Source of the DNA: a virus
Virus record (IMG/VR): IMGVR_UViG_3300050138_000206
Location: 1 to 45,210 of that record
Strand: one strand, 5' to 3'
Length of the DNA: 45,210 nucleotides
Position numbers and translations under genes: made by a program. The notes beneath the pieces are model-generated. The model saw nothing but the letters and a program-made list of their open reading frames with translations, was not told where the DNA came from and did no database searches. This document shows, in pieces, positions 6,616-44,134 of this stretch; the first letter of the stretch is position 1; each line of letters starts with the position of its first letter.

Positions 6616-6893
6616 GGTGCCATCTCCGGTGGTGAGGGGGCTTGCACGCCGGCCGTCGCAGCAGCTACGGCGACTTTTGCTTTCACGATCGCATCAATCG
6701 GCCCGCCGTCGCGCACAGCGAAGAGCGCCCCCGCGAGGGTCGCCGCGGCGCCGAGCGTCCCGAGATCGGGGTGCACGAACATCTTGACAATGAAGGCCAG
6801 CACCACGAGCACGCCACAGATGCGCGTCGCTGACGGCGTCCATCCGTCGCTCGAGGCGACAATGCTCGCGATCCAATGCATAAGGGTGCTCAT
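6612..6893 (-). CDS. Probable holin (93 aa)
   Basis: A short amphipathic N-terminus is followed by a strong span (ICGVLVVLAFIVKMFV), a Gly/Ala-rich weakly hydrophobic stretch (LGAAATLAGALFAV) and a polar Ala/Pro tail. Length and position fit a phage holin, which would release the endolysin to the wall. The starts and stops overlap both neighbours. The small two-span protein downstream is an equal candidate for the pore former. Confidence 0.6.
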   Translation of the reverse strand: MSTLMHWIASIVASSDGWTPSATRICGVLVVLAFIVKMFVHPDLGTLGAAATLAGALFAVRDGGPIDAIVKAKVAVAAATAGVQAPSPPEMAP

Positions 6894-7651
6894 GGTCTGT
6901 TAGGCACCGGCTGAGCCGGCACGGTGATGGTGGGGGTCGTGTTGCTGTTGCCGCGCGTCGCGAGCCCGATCCCCGCCGCGATGATGGCCGCCGCGAACAG
7001 GACCACCATCGCCCAGATGGCCAGCTGATTCGCCTTAACGGCCGTCGACGTCTGCATCGACTCCACGCGCTGCACGCCCGCGCCTTGCTGTTCGAACTGC
7101 TTCTTCTCGACGCCGGAGATGCGCGTATCAAGCGCCGCTTGCACGACGGCCAGTTGTGCCGCCAGCGCCTTGGCGGTGTTCTCGACGGCGAGCCGCAACA
7201 ACTCTGCTTGGTTCTTGGCTTCCGAACTCGCGACGGCGACCGCGGTCGCCGACGTGGCGATGATGGCGTTGATGCGGTTCGCCTCGGCGAGGGCGACGGC
7301 ATCGATGCGCTTGGATTCCGCCTCGCGCAATTTGGTCTCGTGTTCGACTCGGAGTCGCGCCTCCGCTTCGAGGCTTTTCACGGTGAGCGCCAGGACGTCA
7401 TCGAGGCGCCGCCGTTCGCTGACGGTGGCCTCCTCTGAGCAGCGGTGCTCGACCTGGCTGAGTTCGCGCGACGCCGACAGCCGGGCGTCGAGCAGGTCGT
7501 CGATGCGTCGCTTTTCGGCGGCGGCAAGATCGTCGAGTCGTGTAACCTGCGCGGCAACCAGTTGCAACACGTTCTTCGTCGGGTCGATCGTCGGACCGCC
7601 GGCCGCATCGATCGGAATGCCGTCTGGCGGCGGGCGCGGGGCGGCCATCAT
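6890..7651 (-). CDS. Long coiled-coil protein with C-terminal membrane anchor
   Basis: A 253-residue protein. Residues ~30-200 are almost wholly helical with heptad-like spacing (EKRRIDDLLDARLSASRE and KLREAESKRIDAVALAEANR). A single strong span follows near 220 (LAIWAMVVLFAAAIIAAGIG), then a short Thr/Pro tail. Start ATGs at 7651/7648 overlap the stop of the tail gene; a longer frame exists but lies inside that gene. It sits between tail and lysis genes. A role in lysis timing or in linking the envelope layers is possible but unproven. Confidence 0.6.
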   Translation of the reverse strand: MMAAPRPPPDGIPIDAAGGPTIDPTKNVLQLVAAQVTRLDDLAAAEKRRIDDLLDARLSASRELSQVEHRCSEEATVSERRRLDDVLALTVKSLEAEARLRVEHETKLREAESKRIDAVALAEANRINAIIATSATAVAVASSEAKNQAELLRLAVENTAKALAAQLAVVQAALDTRISGVEKKQFEQQGAGVQRVESMQTSTAVKANQLAIWAMVVLFAAAIIAAGIGLATRGNSNTTPTITVPAQPVPNRP

Positions 7652-9504
7652 CAGCCCAGCCCAGGATAGCGCAGGAAGCTGTTGATAAAGGCCCCGACCA
7701 CACTGCTCGCCGTGTAGCCCGGCGCCGTGAGTTGCACCCGCACGTAGGTGAACCCGTTGACCGGCGCGATTTGCCACGAGCCACTCGTCGCGCCGGCTGA
7801 GGTCAAAAGCACCATCGGCGGCACGGTCGTCGCCCCGCCGTAACTGCCGCTCGACAGCCCTTGGATGTAGGTGATCGTGACACTGGCGCCCGGTGGCAGC
7901 TCGTTGTCGCTCGGCAGCGTGATGCTCACCACGAGCGGCGCGCCCGATGTCGATTGCGAGAGCGTCAGCGACGCGATCGCCGACAGCTTGTAGCCGGCCA
8001 GCATCGTCACTACCGCCGCGGTCGAGGCCGGCGATGTCCCCGCGCCCGCCTTCGTCTGTTGCGCCGTGTAGCTGTACGTGTTCGGATAGACCGCCGAGTT
8101 GTCGAACACCGTACAGTGTCCCGCGGTCACATCGGCGGCCGTAATCGTGTAGATCGCGACGATGACGCCGCCGCGGTTCAGCCTCACCAGATCGCCGGCC
8201 GTTGGCGCGGTGACGAACGTCACCTTCATCCCAACCCAGCCAGGGAACAGCCAGCTGCCCCCAGACGGGCCGGTACCGCCGCCGGTGCCACCGGTGCCCG
8301 CAAACGTCGCCGCGGCCAGTGTCGGCGCGCTGGGCGTCGAGGCGCCCGCGTTCCGGGTGCTCACGATCGTGAGCGCGAGCCCGCGGCCGGTCGCCTTGTC
8401 GTAGGGGACAAACGTCGCATACCGCACGGGATCACCCGACGTCACCGGCAGCTGCAGCGATGTCTTCGTCGGATCCAAGTCGGTCACCCAATTCGCGAAG
8501 TTCTCAACGGTCTCAATCACCGGATCGGTGGCAAAGACCTCGGAGTAGACGCGAATGAACCCGGTGCCGACATCGGCGGTAATTGCGTACGTGACATTGT
8601 TCGCATCGACCGTGGCGACGATCGTCGGCGCATTGCTCAAGGGGAGCGCCGTGACCACGTAGCTCGAGCCGGCGGTCCGCGTCGGGGTGATCACCATCCC
8701 CGGGCCGCCCGTCGTGAGCGTGGGCGACCCGGTGGTCACCGTGTACGGCGTCACGCGGTAGGTGCCCGCGGCTTGCGCCAGGATCACATCGGAGCCCGTC
8801 GATCCGCCCGCATGGATATGCCCGGGCCCGAAGACGCCAGGCGCGGTCTGCGGCTCGACGAAGTACTCCATGTGTCCGAATTGATGGTCGCTGGGCACGG
8901 TATAGGTCGCCGTCAGCGCGACGGTCATCCCCGACGGCATGACGATCGCCACCGGCTGGATGTTCATGTCTGGCGGCGGGGCGACCGGATAGTCGGCCGG
9001 CGCCAGGGCAACCGACGGGTCGATCGCTACGCGCGCGGAGAATGCGGAGTCGGTGGTGCCCGGCCGCACGGCTTTCACTTGGAACGCGCGGCGCACACCG
9101 TCTGGCGGGAGCGACAGCTTCTCGACGAACCACGTGAATGGCGCCACCGGCCGCCGGTCGATCTCAACCCACGACCCATAGACGTTGGTGCCGACGCCCG
9201 TCTCGAGCGCCATCTGGAAAGCGAGCAGCGTGCCCGGGACCGGCTCGGTGTTGAAGATGGCGATCCCGGCGGACCGGGGATTCGGATACAGGGTGACGAA
9301 TGGCACGATATCGTCGGGCGCCGCGCACGTGCCGACGCCGCTCGAGGTCGTGAACGTGACCTGTTGGGGTGTCGTGAACCCGTTCGAGGGCGCTGGCTCC
9401 ACGTGCGCCACGGCGGCGATGTACTGCGTGTTGGGCGTCAACCCCACGAGTCGGAGCTTCGTGGCGCCCGGCGGCAGCTGTTCGATCGGCATGAGCTTCG
9501 CCAC
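7651..9504 (-). CDS. Beta-rich tail-tip/adhesion protein (617 aa)
   Basis: A 617-residue protein of repeated beta-sandwich-like segments. The N-terminus reads like a fibronectin type III strand pair (GATKLRLVGLTPNTQYIAAVA). A Gly-rich hinge (GGTGGGTGPSGGSW) near 400 separates it from further Ig/Fn3-like modules. No enzyme motif is seen. The GTG start overlaps the TAG of the giant tip protein by one base. It lies last in the tail cluster, where siphoviruses keep receptor-binding or accessory tip proteins. Confidence 0.65.
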   Translation of the reverse strand: MAKLMPIEQLPPGATKLRLVGLTPNTQYIAAVAHVEPAPSNGFTTPQQVTFTTSSGVGTCAAPDDIVPFVTLYPNPRSAGIAIFNTEPVPGTLLAFQMALETGVGTNVYGSWVEIDRRPVAPFTWFVEKLSLPPDGVRRAFQVKAVRPGTTDSAFSARVAIDPSVALAPADYPVAPPPDMNIQPVAIVMPSGMTVALTATYTVPSDHQFGHMEYFVEPQTAPGVFGPGHIHAGGSTGSDVILAQAAGTYRVTPYTVTTGSPTLTTGGPGMVITPTRTAGSSYVVTALPLSNAPTIVATVDANNVTYAITADVGTGFIRVYSEVFATDPVIETVENFANWVTDLDPTKTSLQLPVTSGDPVRYATFVPYDKATGRGLALTIVSTRNAGASTPSAPTLAAATFAGTGGTGGGTGPSGGSWLFPGWVGMKVTFVTAPTAGDLVRLNRGGVIVAIYTITAADVTAGHCTVFDNSAVYPNTYSYTAQQTKAGAGTSPASTAAVVTMLAGYKLSAIASLTLSQSTSGAPLVVSITLPSDNELPPGASVTITYIQGLSSGSYGGATTVPPMVLLTSAGATSGSWQIAPVNGFTYVRVQLTAPGYTASSVVGAFINSFLRYPGLG

Positions 9505-23414: not shown

Positions 23415-23768
23415 TCAGGCGCCCGTCCCGACCGAGACCGTGAGCGGGATGTTCGGCACGAACTCGCCGGCATAGCGGATGAGGCGGAGCAGCGGCAGCC
23501 GGTCGCCGCCCGCGATCCGCCACTGATCGCCCGTCAGTGGGTCGAGCACGATCGCGCCATCCGGCACCTTCGCGGTGTCACGGATGAGGATCGTCGCGCT
23601 CCGCTCCGCGCGCTCGGTCGTGGCGATTGTCTTGTCGGTCGCTTGGCCGAGTGGAATGATCCGACCCCACACAGTCGAGGTGTACGTGTACGACGGACTC
23701 TCGACGTTCTGGTCGAGAGTCGCGTCGCTGTACGCGTACACCTGTAGCCGCTGCGTGAGCATCGGCAT
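23415..23768 (-). CDS. Head-tail connector/stopper-like protein
   Basis: A 117-residue, beta-rich protein (LTQRLQVYAYSDATLD, TVWGRIIPLGQAT, RSATILIRDTAKVPDGAIV, DQWRIAGGDRL). Length, strand pattern and position between the gp6-like adaptor and the gp10-like gene fit head-tail joining proteins of the SPP1 gp16/HK97 gp7 type. Assignment is by position and style, not by a decisive motif. Confidence 0.6.
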   Translation of the reverse strand: MPMLTQRLQVYAYSDATLDQNVESPSYTYTSTVWGRIIPLGQATDKTIATTERAERSATILIRDTAKVPDGAIVLDPLTGDQWRIAGGDRLPLLRLIRYAGEFVPNIPLTVSVGTGA

Positions 23769-23773
23769 TGCTC

Positions 23774-24145
23774 TTACGCGATCCCCATCTCGCCTTCTGC
23801 CTCGATGACGAGCGTGGTCACCGTACCCGCGAGTCCCGTGAAGAAATCCGCGACATCGAGTCGGAGTGCGCCATAGAACTCGATGTAGCTGTTGGCGGGC
23901 ACTGACAGCGTGCCGCCCATGAACTCCGTGCCGGCCGCCGAGCCACCCGTTGCGCCGATGAAGCCGGAGAACGCGACCGGCGACGCCGACTTGTTGATGA
24001 TCCGGATGTGCCGGAGGATGTAGTACGTGTTCGTGCTCGTCCCGGGAGGATTCACGCCACCCGTCAGAGTCGGCGGGTTGAACAAGTTGCCCGCCGATGC
24101 GGCCACTGCGACTGGCCCGAGTCGTACCGCTTTGTTGCTTGCCAT
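23774..24145 (-). CDS. Hypothetical beta-rich structural protein (123 aa)
   Basis: Starts at ATG 24145 (MASNKAVRLGP); the longer frame to 24202 overlaps the preceding gene. The body is a beta-sandwich-like chain (YYILRHIRIINKSASPVAFS, NSYIEFYGALRLDVADFF, TTLVIEAEGEMGI). Such small jelly-roll proteins near capsid genes are sometimes capsid decorations or fibre components. No family is recognised. Confidence 0.6.
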   Translation of the reverse strand: MASNKAVRLGPVAVAASAGNLFNPPTLTGGVNPPGTSTNTYYILRHIRIINKSASPVAFSGFIGATGGSAAGTEFMGGTLSVPANSYIEFYGALRLDVADFFTGLAGTVTTLVIEAEGEMGIA

Positions 24146-24920: not shown

Positions 24921-26491
24921 TAGTGGATCTGCCAGACGGTGCCGTCATCGACGAACAGCGCGGACATGCCGGGGGCGAGCGTGATCTGCAGCGTCGACCC
25001 CGAGTCGTTGATGGTGAGGCTAAAGGTCGACGCGAGCAGGTTGGTAATGCTCACGTTCTGCCCCAGAAAGTGCGTCGGCAGCTGGACGATCTCTGTCGCC
25101 GTCGTATTCGTGAGGTACCAGAACGCGCCGAGACACTGCGCGCTCGTCAGCGTCAGCGTGGCCGCGATGGCCTGCTTGAAGATCTGCGCGAGCCCGGCCG
25201 CACTCGCCTGCACGGGCGGGGGCGTCGTGATCTGATCGTACTCGAGCCCCGCATCTTCGCTGGACAGGAACACCGTCATCCCACTGCCTGTCCCGCTTGC
25301 GCCCTGCGCGCCCTGCGGCCCCGGAGGGCCGGGGACATGCATCGGCTCGTCGGGCAACTCGGGGTCGAGGATCATGTGCACCGCGGTCGCCGGACCCGTC
25401 GCCCCCTGCGCGCCCGGCGTGCCCGGCGGCCCGGGCACATGTAGTGGCTCGTCCGGTAACTCGGGCTCCATCACCATGCTGACGGCTGGCGCGGCGGCGA
25501 TGCCTGCTGTGCCTTGTGCGCCCTGCGGCCCTACCGGTCCTGGCACATGCAACGGCTCGTCCGGCTGTTCCGGCTCCCACACCATGCTGACGGCAGGCAC
25601 CGCCGCCACGCCCTGCGCGCCTTGCGCGCCAGCCGGGCCGGGCGGGCCGGGCACATGCAGCGGTTCGTCTGGTAGTTCGGGCTCCAGCACCATACTGACG
25701 CCCGCCGAACCGCTCACACCCTGACCGCCAGGTGCACCGGGCGCTCCGGGGATCATCCACGGGTCGTCGGGCACTTCCGGTTCGATCGCGTGAACGGGAC
25801 CGGCTGTGCCTGCGACGCCCGCCGTCCCCTGTGGGCCCGGCGGCCCCGGTACGTGCAGCGGCTCGTCCGGTAGTTCAGGCTCCAGCATCATGCTGACGCC
25901 AGTCGCGCCTGCAGTTCCCTGCGCGCCAGCAGCGCCCGGCAAGCCAGGCACCATCATCGGATCGTCAGGGACGTCAGGTTCGATCGCGTGCACCGGGCCC
26001 GCGATCCCCGCCACGCCCGGCGTTCCAGGCACTCCCGGTGGCCCCGGTATCTGCATCGGGTCGTCAGGCACGTCAGCGTCCACCACGATCACCTGACCCG
26101 CCTTGCCTACTGCGCCCGCCACGCCTGGTGGCCCCGGCACCTGCATCGGGTCGTCGGGCGTGTCGGCGTCCAGCAGCACCGTCACACCGGCCGGCCCCGC
26201 CGCGCCCTGTGCCCCTTGCGCGCCCGGGAGTCCTGGCGGCCCGGGAATCTGCATCGGCTCGTCGGGCACATCGGCGTCGAGCACCACTGTCACACCGGCA
26301 ACGCCTTGTGAGCCCTTTGCGCCAGCAGGGCCCGGGACCATCATCGGGTCGTCGGGCACCTCCGGATCGATGACGTGAACAGGACCGGGCGCACCGGCCT
26401 TGCCAGCCACGCCCGGGCCACCAGGCACGCCCTGATTCACCTCGACGACTGGCGCTTGGCCAGGACCGGTGACAATCACGGGGCCGGTCAC
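24920..26491 (-). CDS. Collagen-like fibre protein with 11 interrupted repeats (523 aa)
   Basis: Residues ~30-390 hold about 11 units. Each starts with a ~16-residue acidic motif (for example MVLEPELPDEPLHVPG) and continues with 5-6 collagen Gly-X-Y triplets such as GPPGPQGAQG. The C-terminal ~110 residues form a globular, mostly beta domain (VFLSSEDAGLEYDQI ... GMSALFVDDGTVWQIH). Such a head often trimerises collagen-like stalks. The product is probably a trimeric, flexible virion fibre or capsid decoration. It lies among connector genes rather than the tail-tip cluster. The repeats could vary in number by recombination. Confidence 0.85.
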   Translation of the reverse strand: MTGPVIVTGPGQAPVVEVNQGVPGGPGVAGKAGAPGPVHVIDPEVPDDPMMVPGPAGAKGSQGVAGVTVVLDADVPDEPMQIPGPPGLPGAQGAQGAAGPAGVTVLLDADTPDDPMQVPGPPGVAGAVGKAGQVIVVDADVPDDPMQIPGPPGVPGTPGVAGIAGPVHAIEPDVPDDPMMVPGLPGAAGAQGTAGATGVSMMLEPELPDEPLHVPGPPGPQGTAGVAGTAGPVHAIEPEVPDDPWMIPGAPGAPGGQGVSGSAGVSMVLEPELPDEPLHVPGPPGPAGAQGAQGVAAVPAVSMVWEPEQPDEPLHVPGPVGPQGAQGTAGIAAAPAVSMVMEPELPDEPLHVPGPPGTPGAQGATGPATAVHMILDPELPDEPMHVPGPPGPQGAQGASGTGSGMTVFLSSEDAGLEYDQITTPPPVQASAAGLAQIFKQAIAATLTLTSAQCLGAFWYLTNTTATEIVQLPTHFLGQNVSITNLLASTFSLTINDSGSTLQITLAPGMSALFVDDGTVWQIH

Positions 26492-41190: not shown

Positions 41191-41363
41191 TCTGGGTCTC
41201 CGAGGTGCCACGGCGGCACGTCATGGTCGAGGTCGTCATGAGCTTCTGAGGCGAGTGCGAACATCCGTTTGGCCTTCATGACGCACAGCTCCTCGCTCGG
41301 ACGGGTCGTGGCCGTGATTATGAGCATCACAGCCATGATCGCGATGCACTGCTGGTCAGTCAT
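41187..41363 (-). CDS. Small hypothetical protein (58 aa)
   Basis: The start at 41363 overlaps the end of the replication ATPase gene by eight bases. An N-terminal hydrophobic stretch (CIAIMAVMLIITATT) is followed by an acidic, polar half (HDDLDHDVPPWHLGDPE). The stretch may be a membrane anchor. No family is recognised. Confidence 0.5.
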   Translation of the reverse strand: MTDQQCIAIMAVMLIITATTRPSEELCVMKAKRMFALASEAHDDLDHDVPPWHLGDPE

Positions 41364-42507
41364 CGTCCTGCTCCCACGCCTCGCCACGGTCGAGGTCGTG
41401 CAGTTCTCCTTGGGATGGTCGGTCATCACGGTTCAGCGGTTCCGGTTCTACAACGGTTCTCTCCCCTTTAGGGGAGAACCGTTGGGAACCGCTGGAACCG
41501 TTGACCATCCCTGCGGTTCCGAACAGTTCTGGAACTACGGCACCGTTCGGAACCGTTCTATCGGGCACAACCCAGATGGGGCGTCCCGCCCGGTTCGAAA
41601 TGTCCTGGATGCGGCCAGCACGAGCGTGCTCATGTAGGAGCACGAGGACAACAGATTTGCCGATCTTGAGCGCCTTGCCGATCTTCTGTGCGTTGCTACA
41701 GCCGGGGTTGTTGAGCACGTAATTGAGTAGGGCATCGGCCTGCCGGATGACCGTCGGCACGGTCGCCATCGGCGCCTCGGCGAGCACGAACTGCCGGTCG
41801 ACCGAGCGCAGCGCGAACGACTGGACGGGAATTCGGCCGCGGGCCCGCACGTCGACGACGCCCTCCTCGCCGGGCCGCGCCGTCATGTTGAGGACCACAT
41901 CGCACGTCGCGGCGATGGCGCCAGAGCCTCGCTCCCGCGGGCTCTCAGATTTCGTGTGGTGATGGTTCAGGACAATGGCGGGGCCCCCGCGCGCGGTTTC
42001 GAGGAGCACATGCAGCACGCGCGTCATCTCCGTCTCATCCCGTTCTGACTCGATGTCGAGCGCGTACCCAAACGCCGCCAAGGTGTCGACGACGATGAGT
42101 GCCCAATCCTGGGCCGCCTCGAGCGCGCGCTGGAATCCGTCGAGCCCTTGGATCTGGTGCACGAGGAAGATCCGCTCGTCGGTCGGCCGATAACCCATCT
42201 CCACCATCGGCCGCCACATGTCCGCCAGCGACTCCTCGAGCCCGAACCAACACACGCGACCCGGCGAGTCCTCGTTCAGCTGCTGACCGAGGAACCGGCT
42301 GCCCGTCGCGACGGCGATCGCCGCTTGCCGAAGGAGCGTCGACTTGCCGACCTTGTCTGGGCCAGCGAGCTCCGTCAGCCGCTGGCGCCACGCGAGGTAC
42401 GGCACGAGCGGCGTCGGTGGCACCAAGAGGTCGGGGTTCAGCATCAAGGCGACGTCCCAACTCCCGCCGTACGGCGGCGGGCGGACAGCGCGCGCCATCT
42501 CAGGCAT
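41356..42507 (-). CDS. AAA_25/RepA-like replication ATPase (383 aa)
   Basis: A RecA-fold hexameric-type ATPase. Walker A is GPDKVGKS at 49-56, Walker B is WALIVVDTLAAFG, and a sensor His stretch is in IVLNHHHTKSESPRERGS. The pattern matches AAA_25 proteins (RepA/RSF1010-type helicases and phage replicative helicase or loader proteins). A C-terminal winged-helix-like segment (ALLNYVLNNPGCSNAQKIGK) may bind DNA. The start at 42507 overlaps the upstream stop by eight bases. With no polymerase or primase in the window, it is the best candidate for the replication protein and would recruit host enzymes. Confidence 0.8.
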   Translation of the reverse strand: MPEMARAVRPPPYGGSWDVALMLNPDLLVPPTPLVPYLAWRQRLTELAGPDKVGKSTLLRQAAIAVATGSRFLGQQLNEDSPGRVCWFGLEESLADMWRPMVEMGYRPTDERIFLVHQIQGLDGFQRALEAAQDWALIVVDTLAAFGYALDIESERDETEMTRVLHVLLETARGGPAIVLNHHHTKSESPRERGSGAIAATCDVVLNMTARPGEEGVVDVRARGRIPVQSFALRSVDRQFVLAEAPMATVPTVIRQADALLNYVLNNPGCSNAQKIGKALKIGKSVVLVLLHEHARAGRIQDISNRAGRPIWVVPDRTVPNGAVVPELFGTAGMVNGSSGSQRFSPKGERTVVEPEPLNRDDRPSQGELHDLDRGEAWEQDDD

Positions 42508-42778
42508 CGGGACACGACTCTCCCTGCGAGGCGCGGAAGCGTTGGCGACACCTGGGATCGTCGAGTGGCCCGCGATAGAGCTGACACCACCGGACCCACG
42601 CGTCGCCGCTCGCCGTGTCCCTGGCGAGGAGCCGCTCCGTCTCGGCCGCGGCCCACTTGACGAACTCGTACCAGTCCGCTGGCACCCGATCACCGGAATC
42701 GGTGACCACGACCTCGTCCTGCGCGAGCGCGGGGTGAGGCGCCGAACGACGGAATCCGTGCCGCCTGGAGCGTGGCAT
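42500..42778 (-). CDS. Hypothetical protein (92 aa)
   Basis: The ATG at 42778 has GGAG ten bases upstream; a GTG at 42787 is too close to it. The protein has a basic N-terminus (MPRSRRHGFRRS) and a helical Trp-rich middle (DWYEFVKWAAAETERLLARD). It may be a small DNA-binding partner of the adjacent AAA_25 ATPase. It is the first gene after the attachment region. Confidence 0.5.
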   Translation of the reverse strand: MPRSRRHGFRRSAPHPALAQDEVVVTDSGDRVPADWYEFVKWAAAETERLLARDTASGDAWVRWCQLYRGPLDDPRCRQRFRASQGESCPDA

Positions 42779-42838
42779 CAGATCCACGCTCCGGTTGCGG
42801 TTCTATGTGCAGATTCTAGGTTTATGGGGGTCAATGCG

Positions 42839-42938
42839 CCCCCGAGGAGAAGACTCGACCCCGCATTCCACGGCCATAACCACTACAATAGATGTCGTGG
42901 TAGGCCGGGTCGGGGGTTCGAGTCCCTCCTCGGGAGCT
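42839..42938. other. Probable attP: tRNA 3'-end-like sequence in a large imperfect palindrome
   Basis: The gap next to the integrase holds a good match to a tRNA 3' half on the plus strand. It has a T-arm GGGGG-TTCGAGT-CCCTC and a 3' acceptor strand CTCGGGA (42912-42935). No D-arm or anticodon arm precedes it, as expected for an attP carrying only the 3' part of a target tRNA gene. The upstream arm (42841-42862) is its near inverse complement: CCCGAGGAG and CTCCTCGGG pair perfectly, as do ACTCGA and TCGAGT. Inner repeats (GGCC; ACCAC/GTGGT) extend the stem. It could also serve as an origin or recombination site. Confidence 0.65.
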
Positions 42939-42973
42939 ACCTTGACTCGTTGGATTGGCAGTTAACGCGGCTT

Positions 42974-44134
42974 TCACGCGTCGCCCTCCGATGTCGGTTG
43001 CGGTTCAGTTGCACTGTCGGGCCCAGACAAGAGGTCAGCGACCCCTTTGAGCCGGTCGCCCCGGTCCTTCATATACTTCTCGGCCTCGCGAATTCCGTCG
43101 CCGATCCAGGCCATCGCGAGCCGCACATCGCCGCCGGTCGCATCCACCACATCGCCCACCACACCGCGCCGGAATCGGTGCATCGCATTCATGTGCACGT
43201 GCGCCACGCCGGCGCGTTGCTCCGCCTCGAGTAGCATCTTTCGCACGGTGTCGTAGTGGATCGGCCGGCCCGCGGTCCGAGCCTTGGGTGAGAAGAACAC
43301 CCATTGCTGCGCATCCTTCGCGCGCTGCTTCCAGATCACGGCGACGTCGAAGGCCAGCTGCACCTGACGCGGTACAGGTTGGACGCGCTCCTTGCCGACC
43401 TTGTCCCACCGCGCGCGCCAGCGAATAGCGTCGCCGTCGTAGTCGTCCCACTGGAGATGCAGGATCGCATTCGTCCGGCCGCCCGTGTAGTGCGCGATCA
43501 CGCAGAACGCCCAGGCGCGCCATTGCCGGCTGCTCTTAGGGTTCAACGCGCCGATGATCTTGAGCGCGTCGGCTGACCGGTACTCGGCGGTCTCTTGTCT
43601 TTTCTCTTCCTTCGCCGCCTTCACCTGGTAGTCCAGGATCCGCGTTGGTGGCACGAGCTCACGATCGACCCCGAACCGATAGACGCGCTTCACGAGCTCG
43701 ACGTGCTTCCGGATCTGCGAGATGGCGATCCCTATCTTCCGGAGCTCCTTCCGGAATTCATCGAGCGTCTCACGCGTCACGAGCTCCGCCTTGGCGGTGA
43801 TGCCGGCGTAGAGTGCCCATCGGCGCCAGTGGCGCGCGTAGTTGATCCTCGTCTTCGGTCGGAGCGCTTCCCACTCGGCATCCATGTACCGAGCCCAGAG
43901 TCCCTCGAGCGTGATCGGCGGTGGCTTGGGTGGTGAGCGGAGGGCCACCGCTAGCGTCTCCGCGAACGCTTTCGCCTCGCGCCGGCCTTCGGGTGCATCG
44001 GGGTAGGACCGCGTGACCAGCTTGCCCTTCACGCGCCACTGGACGCGCGTGTAGCGAGCGGTCGGCGTCTGCTCCGTAAAGACGGTGACGGAGTGGGGAC
44101 GCATACCAAATCGGCCCAGATGCTTCCGCGTCAC
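42974..44134 (-). CDS. int: Tyrosine recombinase (phage integrase)
   Basis: A 386-residue integrase. Residues ~1-70 form an arm-binding type N-domain with a three-strand pattern (YTRVQWRVKGKLVTRSYP), and ~72-165 a SAM-like core-binding domain. In the catalytic domain Arg220 (YTGGRTNAILHL), a Lys near 246, His319/Arg322 (HRFR) and Tyr354 (EKYMK) are visible. IGD (344-346) replaces the usual LGH, so the second His is Asp. GTG 44134 overlaps the preceding stop (GTGA). The gene reads toward the attachment region, which lies just past its stop, and is part of the same minus-strand operon as the lytic genes. Confidence 0.9.
   Translation of the reverse strand: MTRKHLGRFGMRPHSVTVFTEQTPTARYTRVQWRVKGKLVTRSYPDAPEGRREAKAFAETLAVALRSPPKPPPITLEGLWARYMDAEWEALRPKTRINYARHWRRWALYAGITAKAELVTRETLDEFRKELRKIGIAISQIRKHVELVKRVYRFGVDRELVPPTRILDYQVKAAKEEKRQETAEYRSADALKIIGALNPKSSRQWRAWAFCVIAHYTGGRTNAILHLQWDDYDGDAIRWRARWDKVGKERVQPVPRQVQLAFDVAVIWKQRAKDAQQWVFFSPKARTAGRPIHYDTVRKMLLEAEQRAGVAHVHMNAMHRFRRGVVGDVVDATGGDVRLAMAWIGDGIREAEKYMKDRGDRLKGVADLLSGPDSATEPQPTSEGDA

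Follow-up and report, generated by a model that had tools for sequence, protein, structure and literature searches.

A probable lambda-type attP in a tRNA-Asn segment of a tailed phage carries an inverted copy of its own core

The window analysed here, that is, the whole stretch of 45,210 bases of the virus record IMGVR_UViG_3300050138_000206, carries terminase, portal, head and tape-measure genes. A tyrosine integrase gene (P0001, 42974-44239, minus strand) was recognised from its Pfam and PHROG matches (PF00589, E 2.9e-9; phrog_1, E 7.6e-24) and from the integrase alignment A1, which puts a possible real start near 44134. The integrase ORF ends just before a segment of tRNA sequence, with which it is convergent, and a gap of 186 bases separates its stop from P0003 (42500-42787, minus strand), a small co-directional ORF just past the P arm, for which the Pfam and PHROG searches returned no family match. 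A replication-type AAA_25 ATPase gene (41356-42693, minus strand; PF13481, E 8.9e-16) adjoins the attP and lies outside it. Integrase, attP, P0003 and ATPase gene run in a single direction, all on the minus strand. Because phage genes lie on both sides of the site, it would be an unintegrated attP rather than a junction. A plus-strand ORF spanning the site (42344-43234) was rejected as a gene; a PHROG search up to E 1 gave nothing for it, and it is antisense to the integrase and the ATPase. At the start of P0003, a perfect 9-bp inverted repeat with an 8-base loop (42767-42792) abuts the P-arm site. Elsewhere in the window, 24 copies of a 12-base tandem repeat (CCCACGCGGCAG) occupy 35-323, near the contig start, a region that matches a repeat in the prophage of genome G113, and overlapping long-period tandem repeats at 25299-26207 lie in a tail-fibre gene matching a collagen-like minor tail family.

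The tRNA sequence at the site comprises a T-arm/acceptor sequence at 42912-42937. From 30-mer matches and ARAGORN, the plus-strand segment 42905-42937 was assigned to the 3' part of tRNA-Asn(GTT), with variable loop, T-arm, 3' acceptor strand and discriminator, and is the putative attP core. ARAGORN found no whole tRNA in the window, and a whole or split tRNA gene at the site was discarded as a candidate, the 3' part alone being present. The 30-mer at 42907-42936 has an exact match in at least 80 genome stretches; among the 80 matches listed, 76 stretches have titles beginning with Gemmatimonad-, the rest being Persephonella, Xanthomonadales and two other bacteria, and 73 hold a whole tRNA-Asn(gtt) according to ARAGORN. 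Among those listed without a whole gene, L051 was not called as it is cut by the contig end, and L016, L026, L037, L039, L044 and L055 are orphan 3' parts by eye. L037 and L055 start at the variable loop, whereas L016, L026, L039 and L044 start at the anticodon loop and therefore point to elements with a different crossover. An attP-like tRNA half beside the integrase, as the earlier note had read it, is thus present at 42905-42937 with a convergent tyrosine integrase, and the bacterial tRNA that should share its 3' end was found in the tRNA-Asn of Gemmatimonadota.

We then compared the integrase with its relatives. At E<=1e-25, P0001 has relatives in 15 of 395 Gemmatimonadota genomes, the best being 55% identical. 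Of the 15 loci, 10 have a whole tRNA gene (five Thr, two Asn, two Lys and one Arg) at a distance of 76-684 bases beyond the match, and at each of the 10 this gene and the integrase gene converge. In alignment A1, residues R255, K280, H354, R357 and Y389, which we take to be the catalytic R, K, H-x-x-R and Y of a tyrosine recombinase, are invariant in 8 of 8 integrases; the N-terminal part, where an arm-binding domain would be expected, is also conserved, the Pfam match covering the catalytic domain alone. At residues 379-381 tyrosine recombinases usually have LGH, with the customary H/W; the present family has an invariant G-D there (IGD in the window), D381 apparently standing at the H/W position in 8 of 8 sequences.

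The junctions of several relatives could be read directly. In G113, a 42,449-base contig (C111; L124-L126) has the tRNA-Asn segment at both ends, in contig C110 (L127) a whole tRNA-Asn is linked to the integrase-side end of the phage, and in contig C30 (L128) the opposite phage end adjoins an orphan 3' part, beyond which lies other DNA. Read from these contigs, C111 is a 42.4-kb Gemmatimonadota prophage inserted in tRNA-Asn, and its two junctions are found on the contigs next to it. The segment common to its ends extends from the variable-loop region to slightly beyond the 3' end and matches 42905-42937 of the window. Prophage junctions at the core were also seen in G150, and the tRNA-Thr users G245, G355, G395 and G203 have the same limits, their common sequence beginning at the variable loop. 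Integration at the tRNA segment, as first proposed, was therefore seen for relatives, a relative's prophage junctions lying on the same tRNA-Asn segment, and not for the window phage itself; judging from the tRNA matches, this phage most likely integrates into the tRNA-Asn gene of a Gemmatimonadota host. In a two-sequence integrase alignment search, one virus record (L140) had an integrase 53% identical, and its integrase-side end is the same sequence as the G113 prophage end; a second (L141) was distant. Searches of viral_contigs with the integrase, portal and ATPase proteins gave no close relative of the window phage, and searches of the phage collection by DNA and by integrase gave no match. 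Spans of about 2 kb from a whole tRNA gene to an orphan 3' part, at 6850-8910 of G006:C199 and at 1126-3378 of L100 (G018), are possible minimal integrated elements.

An attP for comparison was obtained from 9 of the 15 integrase relatives. G248, G308 and G172 were left out, their second end not having been searched, as were G003 and G006, in which the orphan halves begin with the anticodon loop and were not assigned to the integrase, and G053, whose two halves differ; the weaker pairings among the nine are G002 (joined ends with different cores) and G342 (half tRNA by the integrase, no whole gene). In the window, the 12-mer CGGTTGCGGTTC at 42792-42803 (plus strand, -113 from the core) has a sole other exact copy at 42995-43006 (+90 from the core) on the same strand. 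These exact 12-bp direct repeats are the putative P-arm and P'-arm arm-type integrase sites. The alignment score of the P against the P' flank is 12 in the window, with 2 of 300 shuffles as good. None of 300 shuffles was as good in G113 (18.5), G150 (23), G002 (20) and G245 (13.5), and the remaining scores were 11.5 in G203 (2 shuffles as good), 11 in G018 (3), 11 in G355 (5), 12 in G342 (5) and 11 in G395 (9), which gives at most 5 of 300 in eight of the nine relatives and 9 of 300 in the ninth. On the P side, the offset of -113 in the window compares with -118 to -138 in the relatives; on the P' side, offsets are mostly +83 to +93, with the exceptions of G355 (+115) and G342 (+132). As read from the sequence, this layout is that of a lambda-type attP, and we infer that the integrase binds the flanking repeats.

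Between the P-arm site and the core, repeat search and alignment located an inverted near-copy of the T-arm/acceptor part of the core (left arm, 42838-42862, minus strand). Its paired arms are 42838-42849/42926-42937 (12 nt, 92%) and 42852-42862/42914-42924 (11 nt, 91%), with nested inverted arms at 42849-42872/42896-42919. The alignment of the inverted copy scores 33; the best of 1000 dinucleotide-shuffled linkers reached 31, and the best of a further 500 reached 23. Both the inverted near-copy and the nested repeats between the copies are thus as the earlier note had described them; the foldable hairpin of 100 bp that it proposed does fold far better than shuffles, but is slightly longer, a quasi-palindrome of 117 nt (42830-42946) reaching 9 nt past the tRNA segment on the integrase side. 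When 42830-42950 was folded alone, the z-score was -6.1 as DNA and -6.6 as RNA, with 0 of 200 shuffles as good, and the pairs span 42830/42946 to 42887/42893. Strong folds exist elsewhere too, and among 4509 segments of 121 nt the GC-corrected fold of this region ranks third (z -4.1), behind 41391-41541 (z -5.3) and a region at about 23611-23791 (z -4.4). The hairpin begins 27 nt beyond the integrase stop codon. On the strand of the integrase mRNA it forms 48 pairs (-75.5 kcal/mol, 4 G.U), as against 42 pairs (-67.5, 0 G.U) on the opposite strand, with z-scores of -7.6 vs -5.2, and of -8.3 vs -6.7 in the comparison with the relatives. No match was found in Rfam, nor in viral_contigs by a pattern scan for the same hairpin; in the 395 Gemmatimonadota genomes, the pattern occurred three times, and by eye the tRNA-Asn 3' segment was absent from all three. 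The use of the copy as a second att site for inversion was dismissed, the two copies differing by gaps inside the core.

The relatives do not share this structure. Their nine attPs gave inverted-copy scores of 10-20, compared with 33 in the window, the best being G355 (20, with 20 of 500 shuffles as good), and fold z-scores of -2.7 to +0.6 on the integrase strand (window, -8.3) and of -2.2 or weaker on the other (window, -6.7). An inverted copy or a comparable fold is present in none of the nine, and the hairpin is therefore not needed for integration in the family, which leaves the suggestion that the inverted copy belongs to the integration machinery unsupported. Among the phages found, the inverted copy is peculiar to the window phage, as far as the compared sequences go; since the nearest relative found is distant, closer relatives outside the searched collections may share it. 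In the collections searched, neither a lysogen of the window phage nor a relative above 55% integrase identity was found.

Separated by about 50-90 bp, the two inverted copies of att-like sequence could be imagined to anneal on one strand into a folded single-stranded attP, the hairpin itself being the recombination substrate, as in CTXphi, where a pair of inverted att sites with a spacing of about 90 bp is described as forming a 150-bp forked hairpin (PMC3089051). The likeness lies in the paired inverted att-like copies tens of bp apart and able to form a hairpin. However, CTXphi is a single-stranded filamentous phage that uses the host XerC/D, whereas the window encodes an integrase of its own, together with head, terminase and portal proteins such as double-stranded tailed phages have, and putative arm-type repeats flank its core; neither a single-stranded genome nor a dependence on host Xer recombinases fits these genes. 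The left copy is, moreover, interrupted, the relatives integrate at the same segment without an inverted copy, and the flanking repeats point to an ordinary lambda-type reaction. We consider a folded attP highly improbable.

The P linker of the window is slightly shorter than those of the relatives (-113 vs -118 to -138), so that nothing was inserted in it, and the pairing extends beyond the tRNA segment to phage bases (42942-42946 with 42830-42834), an indication that the attP, rather than a host tRNA, served as template. Template switching writes a reverse complement beside its template, and is described as a known mutation that can make RNA hairpins in one event (PMC8794818). Judging by length and pairing, the inverted copy is most likely a quasi-palindrome specific to this lineage, written over the P-arm linker when replication switched template to the phage's own core.

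We also considered functions linked to transcription and replication. A stable GC-rich hairpin between two co-directional genes could be an intrinsic terminator for the integrase or for a replication operon leader, and cluster K mycobacteriophages are described with a putative stem-loop terminator inside attP (PMC3203893), but no terminator-like site (hairpin and T run) was found on either strand of 42600-43100, and we hold this explanation to be very unlikely. Of the control of integrase mRNA end formation suggested in the earlier note, what stays possible is a hairpin in the integrase 3'UTR; an intrinsic terminator is not found in that interval. The hairpin could likewise serve the AAA ATPase, whose AAA_25 gene adjoins the site, as a replication origin or a place of single-strand initiation. 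However, a dense cluster of GAACCGTT/AACGGTTC repeats at 41434-41558 is a better candidate for the origin, and in 2-kb steps no clear GC-skew turn appears at 42-43 kb, which makes this role hardly credible. The proposed link with replication is reduced to the adjoining ATPase gene: nothing else ties the hairpin to replication, and the repeat cluster 1.3 kb away fits an origin better. This cluster falls within the 3'-terminal part of the ATPase gene, and its repeats are candidate phage origin iterons; 4 of the 5 window copies of GAACCGTT fall within 41434-41558 (shuffle mean, 0.85 per window), a region that has the strongest GC-corrected fold in the window.

In phage lambda, sib is an RNase III hairpin beyond attP (order int-attP-sib), and integration parts sib from int. 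This element downstream of int is described as lowering int mRNA (PMC5300877). An integration-sensitive retroregulator of this kind would act in transcripts running from int through attP, where RNase III would cut the hairpin and the int mRNA would decay; integration at the core would take the left arm off the int mRNA and lift the repression, so that the integrase would be in short supply during lytic growth and at hand when a lysogen excises. The integrase, attP, P0003 and the ATPase gene are indeed co-directional, the hairpin lies 27 nt past the int stop, and the best fold is on the int-mRNA strand (48 vs 42 pairs). In an attL modelled with one arbitrary host tRNA (L006), the hairpin is replaced by an antisense tRNA fold (-59.1, z -3.5), compared with -76.3 and z -7.6 for attP. 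As with sib, a long hairpin is thus predicted past the int stop, and modelled integration parts it from int. On the other side, the structure is kept in none of nine relatives, the nearest of which is 55% identical in the integrase, and the int-attP transcript, its promoter and the cleavage are all hypothetical. The strand preference, taken from the minimum-energy fold, may weakly support such a retroregulator, the G.U asymmetry of 4 to 0 having a one-sided chance of 1 in 16. We regard an integration-sensitive retroregulator as unlikely, and slightly less likely still the more specific proposal that the att core itself forms one side of an RNA hairpin which would destroy the integrase mRNA only in the unintegrated phage, a sib-like retroregulator fused with attP which would have arisen de novo by template switch in one lineage. 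If true, recombination would directly rewire the control of its own recombinase, and, should the hairpin control int, the site would illustrate how one mutation at an att site can give rise to an RNA switch that senses the state of the phage.

The explanation that we prefer, and hold to be very probable, is a lambda-type attP in a tRNA-Asn segment with a lineage-specific template-switch quasi-palindrome that is not required for recombination. The attP itself is ordinary in kind and has good support from sequence, and the inverted copy is its single odd feature, so far found only in the window phage. The tRNA match, the repeats with their positions, the integrase family and the related prophage junctions are read from sequence, and we infer that the window phage integrates at 42905-42937. 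In this lambda-type attP, the phage's own tyrosine integrase would bind the arm-type repeats on either side (42792 and 42995), and strands would be exchanged within 42905-42937, probably near the 5' (variable-loop) end; integration would take place in the host tRNA-Asn gene, the 3' part carried by the phage restoring a whole tRNA. A template switch would have written the quasi-palindrome over the P-arm linker without lengthening it, and any function of the hairpin would most likely be at the RNA level, in the 3' untranslated part of the integrase mRNA. From the site one can read the likely host phylum (Gemmatimonadota, which is poorly sampled), the likely target gene (tRNA-Asn) and the likely extent of the attP, for a phage that has no close relatives in the searched collections. 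It also outlines an integrase family whose attPs have one layout and whose targets are tRNA-Asn, -Thr and -Lys genes.

The attPs of lambda, L5, Giles and CrimD in tRNA genes likewise have their own tyrosine integrase adjacent, a core made of a tRNA 3' part and arm repeats on both sides. In CrimD, the arm-type repeats are described as 11 bp long and paired; pairs in direct orientation are described for Giles and L5 (PMC3203893). Unlike these attPs, the P linker of the window carries an inverted copy of the core. Crossover subsites given for Islander are the anticodon loop, the T loop and the T/acceptor junction (PMC4383910), whereas the common core of the window begins at the variable loop and the crossover within it is putative. 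ICEKp1, an element in tRNA-Asn, is described with an int expression that differs between the integrated and excised forms and with stem-loops near the junction (PMC13023037), which resembles the window; however, its stem-loops are in the int 5'UTR and its int is read from the tRNA promoter, whereas the int of the window converges on the tRNA and the hairpin lies past its 3' end. In a literature search on sib, retroregulation and attP hairpins, the titles and abstract openings named no att-overlapping hairpin of such a kind. Both lambda sib and the hairpin described here lie downstream of int, but the latter would overlap the att core itself.
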